The notes beneath the pieces are model-generated. The model saw only the letters and a program-made list of their open reading frames with translations. It was not told the DNA's origin and searched no databases. A stretch of DNA of 64,000 bases, from assembly GCF_028622875.1 (NCBI RefSeq), contig NZ_CP117709.1, positions 5,149,001 through 5,213,000 of the forward strand, read 5' to 3'. A program made the translations under genes and the position numbers. Within the stretch, counting starts at the first letter, position 1. Every line of letters starts with the position of its first letter. This document shows positions 10,052 through 36,473 of this stretch, piece after piece. This DNA is from Streptomyces sp. MMBL 11-1 (GTDB taxonomy: Bacteria > Actinomycetota > Actinomycetes > Streptomycetales > Streptomycetaceae).

Positions 10052-10069
10052 GTCACTCGAATGGGTGAC
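10052..10069 (+). promoter_or_regulatory. Conserved accessory-region palindrome, copy A
   Basis: GTCACTCGAATGGGTGAC, an 18-bp imperfect palindrome with outer arms GTCAC/GTGAC. It starts 9 bp after a stop codon and 73 bp before the GTG at 10143. Three further copies lie in the same segment, all intergenic, so it reads as a regulator-binding site for the 10143-11639 operon. Confidence 0.65.
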
Positions 10070-10142
10070 CGGACCAATTCTGTCGGAACTCGTTGAGCCA
10101 TAAACGCCAGCGGCCCCGACCAGAACCCGAAAGGAACCAGCC

Positions 10143-10496
10143 GTGACCATGCCCGCACCCGAGGCGCTCCCCACCCCGCTCCCGCTGCCCATCCGCACCG
10201 TCGTCGCCGACTGGGAGACCGTCTCCGACGACCAGGGCTCCACCATCTCCCCGGACATGCGCCCGGTCGTCATCACCGTCACCGCCGACAGCAGCGACGC
10301 AGCGATCGACGCCGCGTCCGACAAACTCCAGGCCCGCTACGGCCCCCACGTCGAGGCCCTGCACCGGCAGCTCCTTACCCGCGACGACTGGTTCGGCCTG
10401 AACGACACCGACCCCCTGCTGCGGGTCTGCGCCGTCTTTGTCGGCGCCCCGATTCTCGACGATGACGGCGACGAGCACGCGGTCTACCTCGCCTGA
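10143..10496 (+). CDS. Hypothetical acidic protein, 117 aa
   Basis: GTG 10143 follows GAAAGGAACC. The N-terminus is Pro-rich (APEALPTPLPLP) and the rest is acidic and soluble, with VVITVTADSSDAAIDAASD (strand then helix). It is the first gene downstream of palindrome copy A and presumably its regulatory target. No family is recognised. Confidence 0.6.
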   Translation: MTMPAPEALPTPLPLPIRTVVADWETVSDDQGSTISPDMRPVVITVTADSSDAAIDAASDKLQARYGPHVEALHRQLLTRDDWFGLNDTDPLLRVCAVFVGAPILDDDGDEHAVYLA

Positions 10497-10565
10497 CCAC
10501 ACCGGCCCGGCCCCAAGCCCCGGACGCAGCCGCAACAACCAACAGCCCAGCAAGAGGAGCCCCGC

Positions 10566-11024
10566 ATGAGCGACCCCCGACCCGCCCCTACCACCGGCTG
10601 GTTTATCGACCTGTCCGAGGAGCAGCAGGCTGAGCTTCTCGGCGCCAGCCTCACCGTCTTCTGCAACATGAGGGCCACCACCGGCATCCTCACGGCCGTA
10701 CAGGACGGGATCGCCTACCTCTACCTGCCCAGCGAGGCCGACCCCGTGCAGTACCCGGTCGGCGGCAGCCGCTACGAGCGCGTCCCCGGCACCCCGATCA
10801 GGCCGGCCCTCGCCTCCGCGCTGCGCTACGAGGAGTCCTGGCGCCAGCGCACCAAGACCCTGACCGACGAGAACGGCGAACTCCTCGACGGGGTCGACCA
10901 GTCCGACTACGACCAGGCGGAGGCCAGGTACGAGGCGGGCCTGCCCGGCGTATTCGACAGCCTGCTCTCCGAGTCCATCGACGCCACGTTCAGCCGCCAC
11001 ACCGACCCTGTGAGGGAGAAGTAA
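10566..11024 (+). CDS. Hypothetical protein, 152 aa
   Basis: ATG 10566 has AAGAGGAGC upstream. It begins with a Pro-rich leader, then GWFIDLSEEQQAELLGAS. The C-terminal half is helical and acidic (SDYDQAEARYEAGLPG). No membrane or signal segment. It lies 70 bp after the previous gene and 3 bp before the next. Function unknown. Confidence 0.65.
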   Translation: MSDPRPAPTTGWFIDLSEEQQAELLGASLTVFCNMRATTGILTAVQDGIAYLYLPSEADPVQYPVGGSRYERVPGTPIRPALASALRYEESWRQRTKTLTDENGELLDGVDQSDYDQAEARYEAGLPGVFDSLLSESIDATFSRHTDPVREK

Positions 11025-11027
11025 CCC

Positions 11028-11639
11028 ATGACCACCAACAGCGCTCCAGTCTTCAAGGCCCCCTTCGGTGGGGCCGGGTGCCAGGTATCCGACCCCAGAG
11101 AGCACAAGGGCTACCACTACGTGGTCGCGTGGTGCATCGGCTTGGGCGCCACCTCGCGGGACTACGTCATCGGCCAGTGCAACCAGGCAGCGAAGGAGGA
11201 CGCCCCGGTCAACGCGATTTACAAGACCCGCGCCGCTCCCCACGAAGAGGACAAGGGCACGTGGGTGGTCTTCGACGAGATCGCCCGCCCGGAGAACAAG
11301 GAGCGCATCGAGCAGTACGTCCAGGCCATGGTCGACTACGAGAGGCGCCTTGCCGAGTGGCGCCAGGCGCAGAAGAACCACCCGCCGCTTCACTCCTACA
11401 CGCTGACCTTCCCCGCCACGGTGACCGTCACCGTTCGGGCGGTCTCACTCAAGGCCGCCGCCGTTGCCCTGGCCCCGGTGGACGGACAACAGCATCACGA
11501 GGTCAAGCAGGTGGTCCCGGCCTTCGGCGGCACGATGCGGCTCCTGCTGGATCGGACAGCCGCCGACCTGGTCGCCACCGACGACCCCGAGCACAAGGCC
11601 CCGCCGGCTCCCGAGCGTAGGATGCCTCTCGGCACCTGA
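11028..11639 (+). CDS. Hypothetical protein, 203 aa
   Basis: ATG 11028 follows GAGGGAGAAG. The middle is a charged helix (RIEQYVQAMVDYERRLAEW), then a strand-rich stretch (YTLTFPATVTVTVRAVSL) and a disordered Pro/Arg tail. It is the last gene of its operon and is followed by a hairpin terminator. No known family is recognised. Confidence 0.65.
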   Translation: MTTNSAPVFKAPFGGAGCQVSDPREHKGYHYVVAWCIGLGATSRDYVIGQCNQAAKEDAPVNAIYKTRAAPHEEDKGTWVVFDEIARPENKERIEQYVQAMVDYERRLAEWRQAQKNHPPLHSYTLTFPATVTVTVRAVSLKAAAVALAPVDGQQHHEVKQVVPAFGGTMRLLLDRTAADLVATDDPEHKAPPAPERRMPLGT

Positions 11640-11655
11640 ACAGCTCCTGGTACCG

Positions 11656-11705
11656 GCCCGGCCCTCCTTCGCGCCTCCTACGCGCCAAGGGGGGCCGGGC
11701 CTTTG
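11656..11705 (+). terminator. Terminator after the 10143-11639 operon
   Basis: Stem gcccggccc / gggccgggc with a 27-nt loop, followed by CTTTGC. GC-rich stem, weak T-tract. Confidence 0.65.
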
Positions 11706-11819
11706 CTATCCCCCGGGCTGGAGCAGACGATGTTCCCCCGCGCATTCGAGACGCAGTAGCGTCGCGGGCAGGGACACCGCAGCAACCAGGGAGCATCCTG
11801 CTGACGGCTTCGGCACCCC

Positions 11820-11837
11820 ATCACTCGTACGGGTGGT
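11820..11837 (+). promoter_or_regulatory. Conserved accessory-region palindrome, copy B
   Basis: Core TCACTCGTACGGGTGG, one base off copies A and D in the right arm. It is embedded in a larger inverted repeat (gcaccccatcac ... gtggtggggtgc). It lies about 80 bp upstream of ATG 11919, with a TAGAAT -10-like box at 11903-11908 between them. Confidence 0.55.
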
Positions 11838-11918
11838 GGGGTGCAGTGTTCGCCAGCCGAAAGTATCCCCGCCCATGGGGGCGACCTGATCATCGGCAGA
11901 AATAGAATCGGAGTGCGA

Positions 11919-12260
11919 ATGAGTGCCCGCGTCGGTATGAACTACGTGGACGAACACGGCAACCAGCAGAAGCTCTGGGAGAGCGGCGCGCAAAAGCTCG
12001 CCCATGTCGCCGAGAACGCCCCCGTCGGTCGGCTGCAAGCCCCTGGGCAGTGGCGGGTCACGGCCGTGAGGGACTTCCAGGACAGCGGTCTTTGGGAGGT
12101 GACGTGGGTAGAGCCGGGCGATACCGAGCGGGTTGGCGGCTGGATCATCACCGGGCTCACCGCCAAAGGTCGCAACCTGCTCAGCGACTGGAACCGCCGC
12201 GTCACCGTGGGCGGCGATCGAGGACCCGCCAGGAAGAACCGTCCAGGAGAGGCCACTTGA
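11919..12260 (+). CDS. Hypothetical protein, 113 aa
   Basis: ATG 11919 (MSARVGMNY) is chosen over an in-frame start at 11841 that would overlap the copy B hairpin region. A -10-like TAGAAT ends 10 bp upstream, so the message would have a very short leader. The protein is beta-like (QWRVTAVRDFQDSGLWEVTW) with a basic tail. Its TGA shares one base with the next ATG. Function unknown. Confidence 0.6.
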   Translation: MSARVGMNYVDEHGNQQKLWESGAQKLAHVAENAPVGRLQAPGQWRVTAVRDFQDSGLWEVTWVEPGDTERVGGWIITGLTAKGRNLLSDWNRRVTVGGDRGPARKNRPGEAT

Positions 12261-12577
12261 TGAGCAAGCTGCAAAACTGCTGCTGGACCCTGGTGCAGCA
12301 CTCCGCGTACGCAGCCAAGCAGGACCCCGTCTTCAGGAACGCGGTCGAACCTGCCGACCTCACCACCCACCAGCAGCTCGGCGAGGTCGTCGATGCCGGA
12401 GGGCTTCTTTTCACAAGCCTCCCCGACGCTGAGGAGGCAGCCGACGACGCCAGCAAACCAAGCCTCGACCAAACCCTGTACCCCGACCGGGTGAGCAGCG
12501 TCCCGCCAATCGAGCTGACTTTCCACGAAGCGCTCACCATCGGCGGCCGACCCCTATTCATCGGAGGGAATTCGTAG
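12260..12577 (+). CDS. Hypothetical protein, 105 aa
   Basis: ATG 12260 overlaps the preceding stop and follows AGGAGAGG. It is soluble, with a central helix (EVVDAGGLLFTSLPDAEEAA) and a C-terminal FHEALTIGGRPLFIGG. It is the second gene of the unit controlled from copy B. No family is recognised. Confidence 0.6.
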   Translation: MSKLQNCCWTLVQHSAYAAKQDPVFRNAVEPADLTTHQQLGEVVDAGGLLFTSLPDAEEAADDASKPSLDQTLYPDRVSSVPPIELTFHEALTIGGRPLFIGGNS

Positions 12578-12880
12578 TACCGGCTCTCGTCAGCCGAACG
12601 GGCTAGACGTGAGACCGCTCCTAAGCAGACAAACGCAGACAGGCATGGGGCGCACACCCGGCTCAACTGGGCTTTGCGCGGGCCTAGATGACGCCTGTCG
12701 TGCGCTTATGCGCCCGGCGTATGCGCCCCCAACTAGTAACGAAACTGTTCGGTCGCAAGACGCCAATCAGTCAAAATTTCGTATCCAAACCAACGTCCTG
12801 TACCCCCCTTTGGCTCCTTCACACGCTTGGCGGCGCTAGAGTGCGGCCTTACCCTTACCGCACCGCATGGAGGAACAGCC
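12578..12880. other. AT-richer intergenic region upstream of the Lsr2-like gene
   Basis: No gene is seen. It contains a direct repeat of TATGCGCCC (12708-12732 area), an AT-rich patch (gtcaaaatttcgtatcc) unusual for this GC content, and a small inverted repeat gtgcgg / ccgcac just before the ribosome site GGAGGAA. A TAGAGT near 12835 may be a -10 box. AT-rich tracts are where Lsr2-type proteins bind, so autoregulation is possible (inference). Confidence 0.5.
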
Positions 12881-13582
12881 ATGGCGCAAAAAGTTCAACT
12901 ATTGCTCATCGATGATCTCGACGGAGGTGAAGCCGCCGAGACCGTGACGTTCGCTCTGGACGGCCGCGTCTACGAGATCGACCTCAACCACCTCAACGCG
13001 CAGAAGTTGCGGGAGACGATCGAGCCTTTCCGCCGCGCAGGGCGCCGCGCCGGCACAACCAACCTGCGAGCCAGGGGCCTGCACGTTTCCCGCACCAGCC
13101 AACTACCGCCCCAGCCTGACGACAGCGGTCAGATCCGGCACTGGGCCAAGCGATATGGCATCCCGGTCAACAAGCGAGGCCGTGTGGCCGGCGAGGTGCG
13201 CGAAGCCTACGAAGCCTGTCAGCGCAACGATAGTGAGCCTCTCAAAAAGTTGCTCGCAGTAAACAATCTCGACCCTGACACCGAGCCCGCTCCGGAGACA
13301 ATCTCCACCGAGCCTGAGGCTCCCACGGTAATCACCTCGGAAGACCGTGCCCGCATCACAGCACGTCAGGCAGGCAAGCTCAGCAAGGCCCAACTCAACA
13401 GGCTCCGTGAGGCATATGCAGACGACAAGGGCCTAGGAATCTCCGACGGCCGCAGCAACGCCACGACTTACGAAGCTCTGGCCAACCGAGGACTCATGCG
13501 GAAGATCGAAGAGAACGTCTACGAGATCACCCTGGCTGGCCGACTCTGGTTCGAAGTCCACGACATCAGCCCGGCCGCCTAA
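12881..13582 (+). CDS. Lsr2-like nucleoid protein with C-terminal winged-helix-like extension, 233 aa
   Basis: Residues 1-112 match Lsr2, the actinobacterial DNA-bridging xenogeneic silencer. The dimerisation part begins MAQKVQLLLIDDLDGGEAAE and the DNA-binding part has IRHWAKRYGIPVNKRGRV, with the minor-groove RGR at residues 99-101. Host Lsr2 is about 110 aa. The extra 120 residues comprise an acidic linker and a segment (LSKAQLNRLREAY ... YEITLAGRLWFE) that looks like a winged helix. Start ATG 12881 with GGAGGAA. A second Lsr2-like gene follows. It probably silences the element or host AT-rich DNA; target unknown. Confidence 0.88.
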   Translation: MAQKVQLLLIDDLDGGEAAETVTFALDGRVYEIDLNHLNAQKLRETIEPFRRAGRRAGTTNLRARGLHVSRTSQLPPQPDDSGQIRHWAKRYGIPVNKRGRVAGEVREAYEACQRNDSEPLKKLLAVNNLDPDTEPAPETISTEPEAPTVITSEDRARITARQAGKLSKAQLNRLREAYADDKGLGISDGRSNATTYEALANRGLMRKIEENVYEITLAGRLWFEVHDISPAA

Positions 13583-13609
13583 CCTCAAGCCCACAACTGC
13601 ATACCCAAA

Positions 13610-13644
13610 GAAGCCCGTCAGCCTGCCGACGACTGACGGGCTTC
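13610..13644 (+). terminator. Terminator 1 after the first Lsr2-like gene
   Basis: Perfect 12-bp stem gaagcccgtcag / ctgacgggcttc with an 11-nt loop, 28 bp after the stop codon. Confidence 0.8.
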
Positions 13645-13655
13645 GCCGTACCTCC

Positions 13656-13680
13656 AAGGCCCCGTAGCCCGGGGCCTTTT
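13656..13680 (+). terminator. Terminator 2, tandem with the previous one
   Basis: Stem aaggccccg / cggggcctt with a 5-nt loop and TTTT ending at 13680, just 25 bp before the next gene. The tandem pair separates the two Lsr2-like genes into independent units, or attenuates read-through. Confidence 0.75.
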
Positions 13681-13704
13681 CCATGCACACCCAGGGAGAC
13701 AGCC

Positions 13705-14694
13705 ATGCTGCGCACCATCGTTACGACCACCGACGACCTCGCCAACGACGGCACCCTCGCCGATGAGACCATCCGCTTCGCCCTCGACGGCACCCAGTAC
13801 GAGATCGACCTCACCTCCGCCAACGCCGACACCCTGCGCTCCGCCCTCGCGCCCTACATCCGGGCCGGCCGCACCATCCGAACCGGACACAGCAACAACT
13901 CCAAGTCCGGCGCTGTGCCCATGGAGACGCCCGCCGGCGGCGGCGCAACGAGCAGCCGACACCAGGGCGGCATCAACCCCGCCGAGGTGCGCGCATGGGC
14001 GCGCGAGCACGACGTTCCTGTCCCCAAGCGAGGCCGCCTGCCCAAGGACGTCAAGGACGCGTACAGCGTGCACACGAAATTCGGAGACCGCACCCAGCTC
14101 GACGCCCTCCTGCGCAGGCAGAGCACCGACACCGAAGCCCTTACACCCGATCCCACTCCTCAGCCCCCCACCCCCAGCACACAGACCGAGGCAACGGAAG
14201 GCATGCTCCTGAACTTCGCCCCGCCCGCCCCCGCCGAGAACACCGACAAGCCGACCAGCGAGAGCACCGCACCGCAGCAGGACGCAAAACAGCAGCCCGC
14301 CGAGCCCGACACCAACACCCCCGACGACCCCGAAGAGGCCGAAGCCCGCAAGCACTACCGCAACCTCAAGGAGGCCGGGCTGCTCAGTGCCCGCGCATCG
14401 GCCGACGGGTACTGGGAACGGCGAACGGCAGGCGGTCTGGAGCGTACCGACAAGGTTGAGAGCATGACCCTCGCCGAGCGCATCAGCATCCTCACGGAAA
14501 GGAACGTCACCCTCCTGGGGAAGCTCGCCGGCATCCTCAACCTCGACAAGGGCGGCAAGATCAGCTACCTCGCAGGATCAATCCAGCGAATGGAGAACCT
14601 GGAGGTCATCGTCGAGGACCGAACCTCTCCTCACGGCTGGGCGATCACTGATTTCGGCCGCTACGCCCACAGCGTCCACAGTCTGGGCGAATAG
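13705..14694 (+). CDS. Second Lsr2-like protein with long C-terminal extension, 329 aa
   Basis: The Lsr2 core is clear at residues 1-121: a dimerisation part (ETIRFALDGTQYEIDL) and a DNA-binding part (EVRAWAREHDVPVPKRGRLP, RGR at 109-111). An insertion of about 25 residues separates them. Then comes a Pro/Thr/Ala/Glu-rich disordered linker (about 140-210) and a C-terminal domain of about 115 residues ending with HGWAITDFGRYAHSV, possibly winged-helix. ATG 13705 follows GGGAGAC. At 329 aa it is three times the usual Lsr2 length. It diverges enough from its neighbour to be an old duplication or a separate acquisition. Confidence 0.85.
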   Translation: MLRTIVTTTDDLANDGTLADETIRFALDGTQYEIDLTSANADTLRSALAPYIRAGRTIRTGHSNNSKSGAVPMETPAGGGATSSRHQGGINPAEVRAWAREHDVPVPKRGRLPKDVKDAYSVHTKFGDRTQLDALLRRQSTDTEALTPDPTPQPPTPSTQTEATEGMLLNFAPPAPAENTDKPTSESTAPQQDAKQQPAEPDTNTPDDPEEAEARKHYRNLKEAGLLSARASADGYWERRTAGGLERTDKVESMTLAERISILTERNVTLLGKLAGILNLDKGGKISYLAGSIQRMENLEVIVEDRTSPHGWAITDFGRYAHSVHSLGE

Positions 14695-14710
14695 CGTGGG
14701 GCGAAACTAT

Positions 14711-14743
14711 GGAACCCGGCGCGTATCGTCCTCGCCGGGTTCC
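14711..14743 (+). terminator. Terminator after the second Lsr2-like gene
   Basis: Perfect 11-bp stem ggaacccggcg / cgccgggttcc with an 11-nt loop, 16 bp after the stop codon. Confidence 0.8.
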
Positions 14744-14762
14744 GCAAGGCCCCGGACGGCGA

Positions 14763-14780
14763 TTCACCCATTCGAGTGTC
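14763..14780 (-). promoter_or_regulatory. Conserved accessory-region palindrome, copy C (inverted)
   Basis: TTCACCCATTCGAGTGTC on the + strand; its complement GACACTCGAATGGGTGAA matches copy A except at the ends. It lies about 90 bp upstream of GTG 14871. A possible promoter follows it: TTCCGG (14805-14810), 18 bp, TAGCTT (14829-14834). Confidence 0.6.
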
Positions 14781-14870
14781 GGTGAAACAATTCGTCCCAG
14801 TGCGTTCCGGACACAGCGACTTTCCCGCTAGCTTTGGTCCATCGTGACTCGATCAGCACAGGGAGTAACT

Positions 14871-15338
14871 GTGGCAGTAGAGACTACCGACTTCGTGCCC
14901 CCCTCCGAAGACGACGTGTACGCGCACATTGACTCCATCCCCCCACGGCTCCGCAGGTGCGCCGCAGCCCAGCACAACTGGCAGCCCCACGACTGGACCG
15001 GCTACAAGGCCAGCGGCGCTCTGCTCAAGCCCAAGGAAGACCCCAGGCGAGCTGTCAGCTTCGAGGTCACCGAGGTCTGCGGCGGTGGGGCAGGCTGCGG
15101 TCTTAGGCGCCACCATTCCTTCAGCGTTGCAGGCGAACGCGTCTACGACCGGACCGCGTTCACCTACTCCCAGCGCAACGAGAACCTCACCAGCCCCTAC
15201 GGCATTTCCACCACGGGCATCAGCGTCCGCCGCGAGGTCAGCAACGACAACATGTACCGCCGCATCATCGGGGCCGGCCGCGTCCACCTCGCGCCCGCTG
15301 GCGCCACCAAGAAGGCGCTCGGCAGGAAGGCCGCGTAA
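14871..15338 (+). CDS. Hypothetical Cys/His protein, 155 aa
   Basis: GTG 14871 follows GGGAG at good distance; a longer GTG start at 14844 has no ribosome site. Cys/His residues (RRCAAAQHNWQPHD, then CGGGAGCGLRRHHSF) could form a zinc site. The C-terminus is basic (ATKKALGRKAA). It shares one base with the next gene's start. No family is recognised. Confidence 0.65.
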   Translation: MAVETTDFVPPSEDDVYAHIDSIPPRLRRCAAAQHNWQPHDWTGYKASGALLKPKEDPRRAVSFEVTEVCGGGAGCGLRRHHSFSVAGERVYDRTAFTYSQRNENLTSPYGISTTGISVRREVSNDNMYRRIIGAGRVHLAPAGATKKALGRKAA

Positions 15339-16060
15339 TGGCCCGCCAACTCATCCAGACGGCAACCACCTCCTGCGACTGGCACGCTGCGCTCCCCGAC
15401 CCCCAGAAAATCGACGCGACCACCCAACGCACGCCCGCACTCGACAAAGAGATCGACCTCTGCGGCTTCTGCGCGCTGGTGTGGGACTTCGTCTTCCCGA
15501 GACTGGACGAGATCCACCAGATGCTCAAGCCGGACGTCGTCGAAATGCTGGTGCGCTCCGCCCGCAGTTCCAAGGACGCCGATGCCCGCGTCCCCGTACA
15601 GCTCGCCCTCCACGGGAACACAACACCAGCGGAGCCTGCACCATCGAAGGCAGGCGGAAAATCTCCAAAGGAGAAGAATGAAGCACGCGCGTCTGCACCC
15701 GCTCCTGCACGTGCAAGCAAGAACGGGCGTTGGCTCGCAAATGAAGATCAGGTCCGCTGCCCCCTCCCGCACCGTGCCGGCAGCCCGGCCACGTACTGGG
15801 TCAAGGTCCGCGACAGGGGCAGCCATGCGAAAAGTAGTCACGGGTTGCTCGGCCCTCAAATCGCCTACGAGTTCCCCCCAGCCCCGACCACGGGGAAGCA
15901 GCTCGACCTTCCCGTGAAGTGCTTCGTCCACAAGGTATGCGCCGAAGCCGGCGGCTTCGGCTTCAAGGACGAGGCGGGCCTTCGCTGCCACATCATCAAG
16001 GCCAAGGCGTGGGAACCGCACGAGGACGCCGCAGAAACCCCGCAGAGCGCAGCCGCGTAG
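15338..16060 (+). CDS. Hypothetical two-zinc-site protein, 240 aa
   Basis: Start ATG 15338 overlaps the previous stop (TAATG). The N-terminal module has C13-x2-H16 and C42-x2-C45 (CDWH ... CGFC) and then a helix, compatible with a zinc-stabilised domain. A basic, Pro/Ala/Lys-rich linker (about 95-130) joins it to a C-terminal module with CFVHKVC and a later CH pair. Two metal modules joined by a flexible linker fit a nucleic-acid-binding protein; that is inference. Confidence 0.65.
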   Translation: MARQLIQTATTSCDWHAALPDPQKIDATTQRTPALDKEIDLCGFCALVWDFVFPRLDEIHQMLKPDVVEMLVRSARSSKDADARVPVQLALHGNTTPAEPAPSKAGGKSPKEKNEARASAPAPARASKNGRWLANEDQVRCPLPHRAGSPATYWVKVRDRGSHAKSSHGLLGPQIAYEFPPAPTTGKQLDLPVKCFVHKVCAEAGGFGFKDEAGLRCHIIKAKAWEPHEDAAETPQSAAA

Positions 16061-16066
16061 AGCTGA

Positions 16067-16117
16067 AAATCAGCAGGGCCCCCGTCTTCTCCGTAGAGAC
16101 GGGGGCCCTGCTGATTT
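16067..16117. terminator. Bidirectional terminator, 21-bp perfect stem
   Basis: Inverted repeat of 21 bp per arm (16067-16087 and 16097-16117) starting AAATCAGCAGGGCC, with a 9-nt loop; A-rich on one side and T-rich on the other. It lies between convergent genes (stop 16060 on +, stop 16124 on -), so it can serve both. Confidence 0.9.
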
Positions 16118-16123
16118 CCGACC

Positions 16124-16705
16124 TCACAGACCCGGCCGTCGCTTAATAGTCGCCTGGAGGATGACAGTCTCCTCCTGCACCGGCCGACTCCGCTCCAGAA
16201 AATCGAGGAGCGCCGCCCGGCGCTCCGGGTCAGCGGTGAGCATCGCGTAGAGCTTCGGCTCGATAGCCACGGCCGCACCGCCGTACCACAGGGCAGAATT
16301 TAGCAGCCGCAGCCCTTCGATATCGTCGAGGAAACCGCCCTCCGGACGGCAACCCCAGGGGCACGCCAGGGCTTCCATCAGCCCCCAGATTCGGCAGACC
16401 ATCGGCCGGTCCTCGTACACCCGGCACACCAGACGTGAGAGATCCAGCGCTGAACAAGCAGTCCCTGCTGCCTCGCCGTTCGTCAAGGGGATCGCACGAC
16501 CGTCCACCCACCGGTGGCCCCGGGATTCGATACGGCGCCGCTCCAGGGGGCTGAGCTGCACGGGGCCGCACGCCGACGCACATTCCCCGATGCATTTCAT
16601 GCGTGGGAGGGAACGGTATAGCTCATCAAGCTTCTTCGGATTGGGCTCTCGGGCCGGCCCGCCGGCCAAGGCCGTGACCGTGGCTACCGCCTCGTCAATT
16701 TCCAT
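16124..16705 (-). CDS. YkgJ-family cysteine-cluster protein, 193 aa
   Basis: Eight cysteines are arranged as in the YkgJ (Fe-S/zinc cluster) family: C38, C42, C46, then C84, C94, C104, C115 and C119, including VCRVYEDRPMVCRIWG. Family members are small cytoplasmic metal-cluster proteins of unclear function. The start ATG 16705 is divergent from the 16873 gene, and palindrome copy D lies 42 bp upstream. It is the only minus-strand gene of the accessory segment. Confidence 0.8.
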   Translation of the reverse strand: MEIDEAVATVTALAGGPAREPNPKKLDELYRSLPRMKCIGECASACGPVQLSPLERRRIESRGHRWVDGRAIPLTNGEAAGTACSALDLSRLVCRVYEDRPMVCRIWGLMEALACPWGCRPEGGFLDDIEGLRLLNSALWYGGAAVAIEPKLYAMLTADPERRAALLDFLERSRPVQEETVILQATIKRRPGL

Positions 16706-16746
16706 GTCCAGCAGGTTATGTGCGCGACCATCGGGACGTGGTGCAC

Positions 16747-16764
16747 GTCACCCGTACGAGTGAC
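16747..16764 (-). promoter_or_regulatory. Conserved accessory-region palindrome, copy D (inverted)
   Basis: GTCACCCGTACGAGTGAC on +; complement GTCACTCGTACGGGTGAC. It lies in the divergent promoter region between the YkgJ-type gene (start 16705) and the 16873 gene, so one protein bound here could control both. Confidence 0.65.
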
Positions 16765-16872: not shown

Positions 16873-17190
16873 ATGAGGAAGAAGTCGCAGCAGACGTCGC
16901 AGGACCACCTGACGGAGTCTCTGCACCGGATCGTCGAAGAGGCGAACCTGGCGCTGGCTCAGACGGACGGTGAGTGCCTCGACGCCCGGCTCTCGCCGCG
17001 ACAGCAGGACTACCTCCGGGACCTGCTGCTGGGGCGGGATGACGAGGTCGCTGAGGGCATCCGGGCGCTCCTGGAGCGCGGGAAGCCCCATCTTCGGGTG
17101 CTTCCTGACCAGCGCCGCTGCGAAGAACCCGCAGGTCAGAACGATGATCCTACAACCAATGCGTTCTGGTACGGTTCGTCAATGCGATGA
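16873..17190 (+). CDS. Hypothetical helical protein, 105 aa
   Basis: ATG 16873 ([10 protein letters not shown]) has a GGGGGCGGGG stretch upstream; a TTG/GTG extension to 16846 is possible. It is mostly helical and acidic through residue 70 ([17 protein letters not shown], then [15 protein letters not shown]), with a disordered tail. Its stop overlaps the next small gene in an ATGA arrangement. No family is recognised; the pairing with a 46-aa partner recalls small two-gene modules, but nothing proves a toxin-antitoxin role. Confidence 0.65.
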
Positions 17191-17327
17191 AATCAGCTTT
17201 CATTCCTTTCGACGAACGTCTCGCCATGATCAACGACGTCGTCAAGCCCGGCTACGCGGAGCTGAAGTCCGAGTGGCTCTTCCGTCAGACCGCTGTGACC
17301 AGCGGCTCTGCCGTCTCCGGGGGCTGA
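17187..17327 (+). CDS. Small protein, 46 aa, translationally coupled
   Basis: ATG 17187 overlaps the preceding TGA (ATGA), the usual sign of coupled translation. The 46 residues start [19 protein letters not shown] and end in a Ser/Gly-rich GSAVSGG. A terminator begins 17 bp after the stop, so a transcript ends right after it. It could be a genuine microprotein, a peptide precursor or a remnant at the element edge; no homology is recognised. Confidence 0.45.
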
Positions 17328-35876: not shown

Positions 35877-36473
35877 CTACTTCAGCCCGCGCAGCGTCAG
35901 CCGCAGCAGCCGCTCCGCCAACTCCGGGTCGTCGGGCGACTGCTCGGCTGCCAGCGCGATCGCGTTGGTGAGCTGGAGCAGATCGTCGATCGAGACGTCG
36001 GCCCGCACCGACCCGCTCTCCTGGGCCCGGCGCAGCAGCCCCGCGCCCGCCTCCCGGAGCGGCAGATGGCACTGCGCGAGGGCCGAGGTCTCGTTGCGCG
36101 AGGCGGACATCAGGCCGTGGGCCAGGCCGCGGTACTCACCCGCATGAGTGACGATCGCGCCCAGCCAGTCCACCAGCGCCCGGCACGGGGCTTCCGCCGC
36201 CGCCAGCTCCCGGGAGCGGTCCAGGAGCGAGCACAGGGCGTCCTGGAAGACCGCGTTCATCAGGGCGTCCCGGTTCGGGAAGTGCCGGTAGAGGGTGCCG
36301 ATGCCCACACCCGCCCGCCGGGCGATGTCCTCCAGCGACGCGTCCGTACCGTGCTCGGCGAAGGACCTGCGGGCCTCACCCACCAGCCGGTCGTGGTTCC
36401 GGCGCGCGTCCGCGCGCATCGGCCGGGCCGGCGCCTGTGCCGTGCTCGTCTCCATCGGGATCGCCCCTGCCAT
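35877..36473 (-). CDS. TetR-family regulator, 198 aa
   Basis: N-terminal helix-turn-helix RRNHDRLVGEARRSFAEHGT and SLEDIARRAGVGIGTLYRHF, followed by an all-helical ligand domain of about 140 residues. A run of 20 residues precedes the HTH, so the start could be ATG 36455. Its target is unknown. It is convergent with the DeoR gene, and accA2 lies behind it. Confidence 0.9.
   Translation of the reverse strand: MAGAIPMETSTAQAPARPMRADARRNHDRLVGEARRSFAEHGTDASLEDIARRAGVGIGTLYRHFPNRDALMNAVFQDALCSLLDRSRELAAAEAPCRALVDWLGAIVTHAGEYRGLAHGLMSASRNETSALAQCHLPLREAGAGLLRRAQESGSVRADVSIDDLLQLTNAIALAAEQSPDDPELAERLLRLTLRGLK

Follow-up and report, generated by a model that had tools for sequence, protein, structure and literature searches.

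Several described systems bear on the palindromes treated here. Al-Bassam et al. (2014, PMC4125116) gave the 16-bp palindrome TCACcCgnncGgGTGA, footprinted at two promoters, as the consensus of Group I promoters of the response regulator BldM in Streptomyces venezuelae. BldM acts mainly as an activator, 131 direct targets being down and 6 up in a bldM mutant, and is described as unique among response regulators in being identical in all streptomycetes (PMC4125116). The stretch of DNA analysed here (the window) comprises 64,000 nucleotides of the 8.5-Mb genome of Streptomyces sp. MMBL 11-1 (G000:C1:5149001-5213000, G000 being this genome; seven-digit coordinates below are G000:C1 positions unless another genome is named, all others are window positions), and its left part belongs to a prophage with a set of palindromes between its genes. 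The same 16-bp palindrome in the same intergenic setting is shared with the Group I promoters, whereas the Group I targets named in PMC4125116 are host developmental genes and those here are prophage genes, with sites predicted from sequence.

Phages whose genes answer to a developmental regulator of the host are already known, in the phi29 family (Spo0A) and among CtrA-controlled alphaproteobacterial phages; these carry several host-regulator sites in their promoters (PMC9437464), and a BldM case would extend this theme. The likeness lies in the several sites for a host developmental or cell-cycle response regulator; those phages are lytic and are subject to repression or deferral, whereas the present case concerns a temperate actinomycete myophage, BldM and probable activation at one promoter. 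In Streptomyces, development limits infection and levels of the bldM and whi transcripts drop at an early stage of infection (PMC10117723), and a prophage, Samy, has been described (PMC11302927); in searches of open-licence PMC papers, no report was recognised that ties BldM to phage promoters or places a Streptomyces prophage under host-developmental control. Other phages carry the gene of a regulator itself, and WhiB-like and Lsr2-like proteins are encoded in this prophage too, whereas the palindromes would represent carriage of a regulator’s binding site.

The CIRs of phiC31 and the stoperators of L5 are operator sets of actinophage repressors, and like the sites described here they are several near-identical intergenic palindromes in one prophage. 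They serve a phage repressor, whereas the present palindrome is in addition conserved at promoters of the host: related palindromes stand at bldM and in chromosomal intergenic DNA, so that the sites do not belong to the phage alone. We consider that the prophage palindromes are probably sites for homodimers of host BldM, of the Group I type, which selection has maintained close to promoters of a large temperate myophage, and that BldM made at the developmental stage would bind them and change prophage transcription.

Palindromes of the prophage

The accessory segment of the window, taken in a preliminary description of this DNA for an integrated element, is the right end of an approximately 108-kb contractile-tailed prophage (a myophage) with at least five sites. 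The whole window was scanned with the 18-mer GTCACTCGWAYGGGTGAC, allowing up to 3 mismatches, with 100 shuffles as the chance control; the fifth site lies outside it.

Site A: 10052-10069, + strand, 0 mismatches to the 18-mer; ATCACTCGAATGGGTGAC in the viral contig stretch L040
Site B: 11820-11837, + strand, 3 mismatches to the 18-mer
Site C: 14763-14780, - strand, 2 mismatches to the 18-mer
Site D: 16747-16764, - strand, exact 18-mer; the + strand reads TCACCCGTACGAGTGA
Site E: 5134991-5135008, identical to A, 14 kb left of the window and within the same prophage

The scan returned sites A-D and one match in host DNA, where 0.25 were expected and no shuffle gave more than 2. The four copies of the preliminary description, including the two that it called exact (A and D), are therefore present, and all four lie between open reading frames (ORFs) taken as genes, as it had stated; site E is likewise placed between called ORFs. 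Site B is the centre of a longer near-palindrome of about 32 bp, and a weaker prophage copy lies at 5136270. The match in host DNA, to the right of the prophage at 36135-36152 (- strand), has 3 mismatches to the 18-mer and the 16-mer form TCACCCGCATGAGTGA.

Site D fits TCACNCGNNCGNGTGA exactly, while departures from TCACYCGNNCGRGTGA number one in A, one in B and two in C. Over the whole MMBL 11-1 genome TCACNCGNNCGNGTGA occurs at 4 places, D included, against none for the reversed control, and the 18-mer GTCACYCGNNCGRGTGAC with 2 mismatches at 45 places against 10, with E among the closest matches. The relaxed 16-mer TCACYCGNNCGRGTGA with 3 mismatches is not enriched in the window (27 matches against an expected 19.8, with 7 of 100 shuffles giving at least as many), and so only close copies count. 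Chance origin is rejected for these by the 18-mer scan and by the prophage shuffles given below, but not for the loose ones. The scan of the whole genome and of relatives proposed in the preliminary description adds E and a series of conserved counterparts.

Conservation in related prophages

Among 295 genomes, relatives of the prophage terminase were found in 3 others, namely G091 (87% identity), G224 (66%) and G048 (60%). The G091 prophage is collinear with that of MMBL 11-1 and occupies the same locus; closer still is the relative on a 108,057-bp viral contig. At matching positions in G091 the counterparts of A, C, D and E are identical at 17, 18, 13 and 16 of 18 positions, respectively, set in 60-bp flanks of 62-81% identity (66-68% for site C). 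The changes at D largely preserve the palindrome, and its counterparts in both L040 and G091 keep the palindromic form. L040 has all of A-D, with C identical, and E is found on the same contig. G091 has one extra site, GTCACTCGAACGGGTGAG at its position 3325351. The prophages hold several such sites at their promoters, and related phages have kept them.

Prophage counts were made with TCACYCRNNYGRGTGA at 1 mismatch and, separately, with the 18-mer at 2 mismatches, each against shuffles. The former gives 7 matches in the MMBL 11-1 prophage, A-E plus two weaker ones (shuffles 0.37, at most 2), and 5 in that of G091 (0.33, largest 2), and the reversed pattern none in any of the four prophages. 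The latter gives 5, 5, 1 and 0 matches in MMBL 11-1, G091, G224 and G048, with shuffles at about 0.9.

BldM and the bldM promoter

The preliminary description compared its sites with the palindrome of the BldM homodimer, and they do match the published consensus TCACcCgnncGgGTGA (PMC4125116). Three features of a Group I target are found: a 16-bp palindrome, an intergenic position before the target gene and a BldM encoded by the host. The non-palindromic TGnnCCGnnCGGGTGA of the Group II promoters, bound by BldM with WhiI (PMC4125116), is not matched, and on neither strand does any of A-E, by eye, begin with TGnnCC. The genome has 55 GerE domain matches, all of them outside the prophage (5057933-5166330). 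A BldD box was rejected, being shorter than this palindrome and differently spaced.

A protein 100% identical to the NarL-type regulator encoded at 4909689-4910300 is present in 29 of 31 genomes, and the remaining two are assemblies of 630 and 1300 contigs. The regulator is taken as BldM because this identity matches what PMC4125116 states of that protein, and since the protein is identical across genomes one site can serve in all hosts. Of the 29 bldM loci 28 could be parsed, and all 28 promoters hold an upstream palindrome, GTAAC(T/C)CTTTCG(A/G)GTGAC, with 2 mismatches, whose first base lies 149-162 bp ahead of the start codon. Closer in, 73-86 bp ahead of that codon, begins a second palindrome that has 2 mismatches in 11 promoters, 3 in 15 and 4 in 2; only 1 of 560 shuffled promoters reached 2 mismatches. 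In MMBL 11-1 the pair lies within 4909539-4909700. Such a pair suggests that bldM is autoregulated, a point on which no statement was found in the consulted passages of PMC4125116.

The palindrome on chromosomes and in other elements

Perfect 16-mers number 175 in 61 streptomycetes, spread over 56 genomes, while the reversed pattern is found twice. Distinct chromosomal sites lie outside called genes in 76 of 104 cases, against 111 of 623 control positions. With 0.34 sites per Mb in Streptomyces, the palindrome is denser in this genus without being exclusive to it, the 65 other actinomycete genomes holding 34 sites in 254 Mb against 1 for the reversed pattern.

The exact 18-mer occurs in 7 of 295 genomes of the genus at 9 places, 3 of them in MMBL 11-1, and 4 of the 6 others precede genes of one MarR-like/HTH family. 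By eye, such a gene is present in 15 of 33 loci with the 18-mer. In this family the 18-mer keeps a constant spacing to the -10-like box that follows it, 28 bp to TACGTT or, in another subgroup, 40 bp to TATGCT.

MarR-like/HTH family loci: L001, L027-L030, L097, L098, L102, L103, L105, L108-L110, L114, L116, L117

Six viral contig stretches also hold the exact 18-mer, one being a relative of this prophage. None of the 54 ORFs of the other five matches the prophage (tblastn), and because three of the five have ORFs in common, they make at least three groups. Because the exact 18-mer occurs both on chromosomes and in viral contigs with no detectable protein similarity to this prophage, a repressor private to the phage fails as an explanation, and an invariant host protein works. 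In two related viral contigs (L071, site 327-344; L072, site 1784-1801) a start codon follows 11 bp after the end of the palindrome, a placement that suggests an operator rather than an activator site.

The preliminary description had offered a repressor of the element as its alternative to BldM, and the best candidate would be the XRE/DUF5753 protein that, with a DUF397 partner, is encoded in both prophages (DUF5753 and DUF397 matches in MMBL 11-1, a similar pair by eye in G091). Its presence in both, the several near-identical palindromes in one prophage and the lack of sites in the distant prophages G224 and G048 would all suit an operator set of this kind. The alternative is nevertheless weakened by the palindromes of the host and of other elements: the same palindrome precedes bldM in 28 of 28 promoters, is mostly intergenic throughout the genus and recurs in viral contigs without detectable protein similarity. 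None of the 7 prophage matches adjoins the candidate gene (5129468-5130385), although the true repressor may be another gene. We regard a phage-encoded repressor as unlikely and favour a host protein, most likely BldM, as the reader of the palindromes.

That host protein might be another regulator altogether, acting on both bldM and the prophage. The palindromes of the bldM promoter could belong to a regulator upstream of BldM; the excess over the reversed control outside Streptomyces would fit such an owner, as would whiB, a known BldM target, which in this genome lacks a clean palindrome. The published footprinted BldM consensus is, however, the same 16-mer with the same spacing (PMC4125116), and another host owner appears improbable.

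If BldM does read the palindromes, the site would be portable, because BldM is identical in the streptomycetes sampled. It is then quite possible that temperate phages and other elements of Streptomyces repeatedly adopted the BldM palindrome to keep time with development. Genes of this prophage and of at least three further groups of elements would be switched at the formation of aerial hyphae, perhaps as a means of steering sporulation or surviving it and of travelling in spores. Phage coupling to sporulating hyphae becomes directly testable, BldM being identical across the genus and bldM mutants existing in laboratory strains.

Promoter geometry at site D

The spacing between the 18-mer and a -10-like box TAnnnT was scanned in 106 chromosomal loci, grouped into 140 clusters of oriented flanks. 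TAnnnT stands at 28 bp in 7 of the 140 clusters and at 29 bp in 2, against a mean of 0.43 per offset; as 3 of the 7 are one gene family, about 5 are independent, and D is outside this set. Further targets of the regulator could be sought by this 28-bp spacing to the box.

Probable D target gene: 16124-16705, - strand, CxxCxxCC (putative zinc- or iron-chelating) protein of 193 aa; PF03692, E 2.6e-5
-10-like box TAACCT: 16713-16718, - strand, 28 bp from D and 7 nt before ATG 16705

At D the box is found at this same offset, as TAACCT in MMBL 11-1 and as TAGCCT in L040 and G091, and the spacing is constant in the three prophages although the intervening DNA has diverged. As TAACCT ends 7 nt before ATG 16705, a leaderless start is likely, with the palindrome likely centred near -50. 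Constant spacing of this kind is what an activator touching RNA polymerase would preserve. The better-supported partner of D is most likely this divergent - strand gene, 41 bp away.

When a hypha enters development and BldM is made, BldM would bind the prophage palindromes and the transcription of several prophage units would change. At D, where the palindrome lies about 50 bp upstream of the predicted leaderless start, BldM would most likely activate the CxxCxxCC gene, whereas its effect at A, B, C and E could be activation or repression. The four units of the window may form one regulon, as the preliminary description had proposed, and host development probably sets the timing of some of the virus’s genes. 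The consensus, the conservation, the bldM-promoter palindromes and the geometry at D support that description’s reading of the palindromes as probable sites for BldM within an integrated element, with binding and regulation remaining predictions.

BldM might instead hold the early genes of the prophage off during sporulation without activating any, a deferral like that of phi29 by Spo0A. Genes of replication type and Lsr2-like genes surround sites A-C, at which the 28-bp spacing is missing, the two viral contigs described above show an operator-like placement, and phi29 and the CtrA phages are precedents (PMC9437464). The balance of BldM targets towards activation (PMC4125116) and the geometry at D, which is that of an activated promoter, argue the other way, and deferral by itself seems possible but rather doubtful.

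Several observations weigh against BldM acting through sites kept by selection, in addition to the sites outside the genus, the state of whiB and the XRE/DUF5753-type protein of both prophages. TAnnnT is absent at 28 bp, in either direction, from A, B, C and E. Site B has no counterpart in the matching stretch of G091 (best 6 mismatches). The distant prophages hold no more TCACYCRNNYGRGTGA matches at 1 mismatch than their shuffles (1 in G224, shuffles 0.38; 0 in G048, 0.33), and five lytic relatives hold either one 1-mismatch match inside a reading frame (two phages) or none (three). When 2 mismatches to the 18-mer are allowed, the top value among 60 shuffles equals the prophage count of 5, which makes this a weak test. 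A crude consensus score of at least 20, the value of site C, is reached 4 times within about 46 kb of the host’s DNA, and the consensus alone is therefore not specific. Finally, ssgR was not located among the SsgA-family loci scanned.

Genes next to the sites and content of the prophage

Unit after site A: 10143-11639, + strand, three ORFs (10143-10496, 10566-11024, 11028-11639), function unassigned
Gene after site B: 11919-12260, + strand, function unassigned, counterparts in L040 and G091 read by eye
Two Lsr2-like prophage genes: 12827-13582 and 13705-14694, + strand, PF11774 and PF23359
Unit after site C: 14871-16060, + strand, two ORFs (14871-15338, 15338-16060), function unassigned
Last codons of the split adenosine deaminase gene: 17187-17327, + strand, the right prophage border lying just before

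The distances of 73-110 bp to starts given in the preliminary description hold for A (73 bp to GTG 10143), B (81 bp to ATG 11919) and C (90 bp to GTG 14871, a start kept in relatives, or 63 bp to GTG 14844). They hold for D as well if the + strand ATG 16874 (about 110 bp) is considered, the better partner being the - strand gene discussed above. The three ORFs after A have no Pfam match and the unit after C has no PHROG match. The first ORF after C is 90% identical in L040 and 39% in G091; a search with the gene after C gave no further relatives in genome contigs, and in viral contigs only the contig already known. The CxxCxxCC protein is 56% identical in G091, and a search with this gene for more relatives gave one distant protein, in a record titled [Actinomadura] parvosata.

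The low-G+C stretch of about 5057.9 to 5166.2 kb, for which prophage bounds of 5057933-5166330 were used, encodes a serine recombinase, RecA, DNA polymerase A, a helicase, a primase, a terminase, portal, capsid, tail tube and tail sheath proteins and a baseplate J protein. An integrated plasmid or integrative and conjugative element was rejected: near and distant plasmid DNA searches and a distant phage search gave short matches, and the proteins are those of a contractile-tailed phage. Among the distant-search matches listed, all lie in Lsr2 genes except in one record that is unannotated there.

The prophage splits a host adenosine deaminase gene, whose left piece departs from the family sequence after ...WFTVN, and homology to the G091 prophage locus resumes at window position 17178. 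A complete second adenosine deaminase gene is carried by the prophage (adenosine deaminase coordinates 5056824-5058092 and 5138131-5139252) and may replace the split one.

SpoVS-domain and WhiB-like proteins, kinds tied to sporulation, are encoded in the prophage at 5075037-5075324 and 5077316-5077681. A gene set for DUF5753 (XRE-type by eye), DUF397 and HATPase proteins lies at 5128897-5130638, with a similar set by eye at G091:C1:3335737-3337434, and we take it to resemble the whiJ-type developmental clusters of Streptomyces. Through this set and the WhiB-, SpoVS- and Lsr2-like proteins, further links of the prophage to host development are plausible.

Besides the serine recombinase (5057933-5059633), the prophage has a tyrosine integrase-type gene (PF00589, 5124178-5125203), which has a counterpart in G091. 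Judged by the tail sheath, the nearest named phages are BRock, GiJojo, LuckySocke, Alone3 and pSt2308 (112-116 kb, 36-37% identity).

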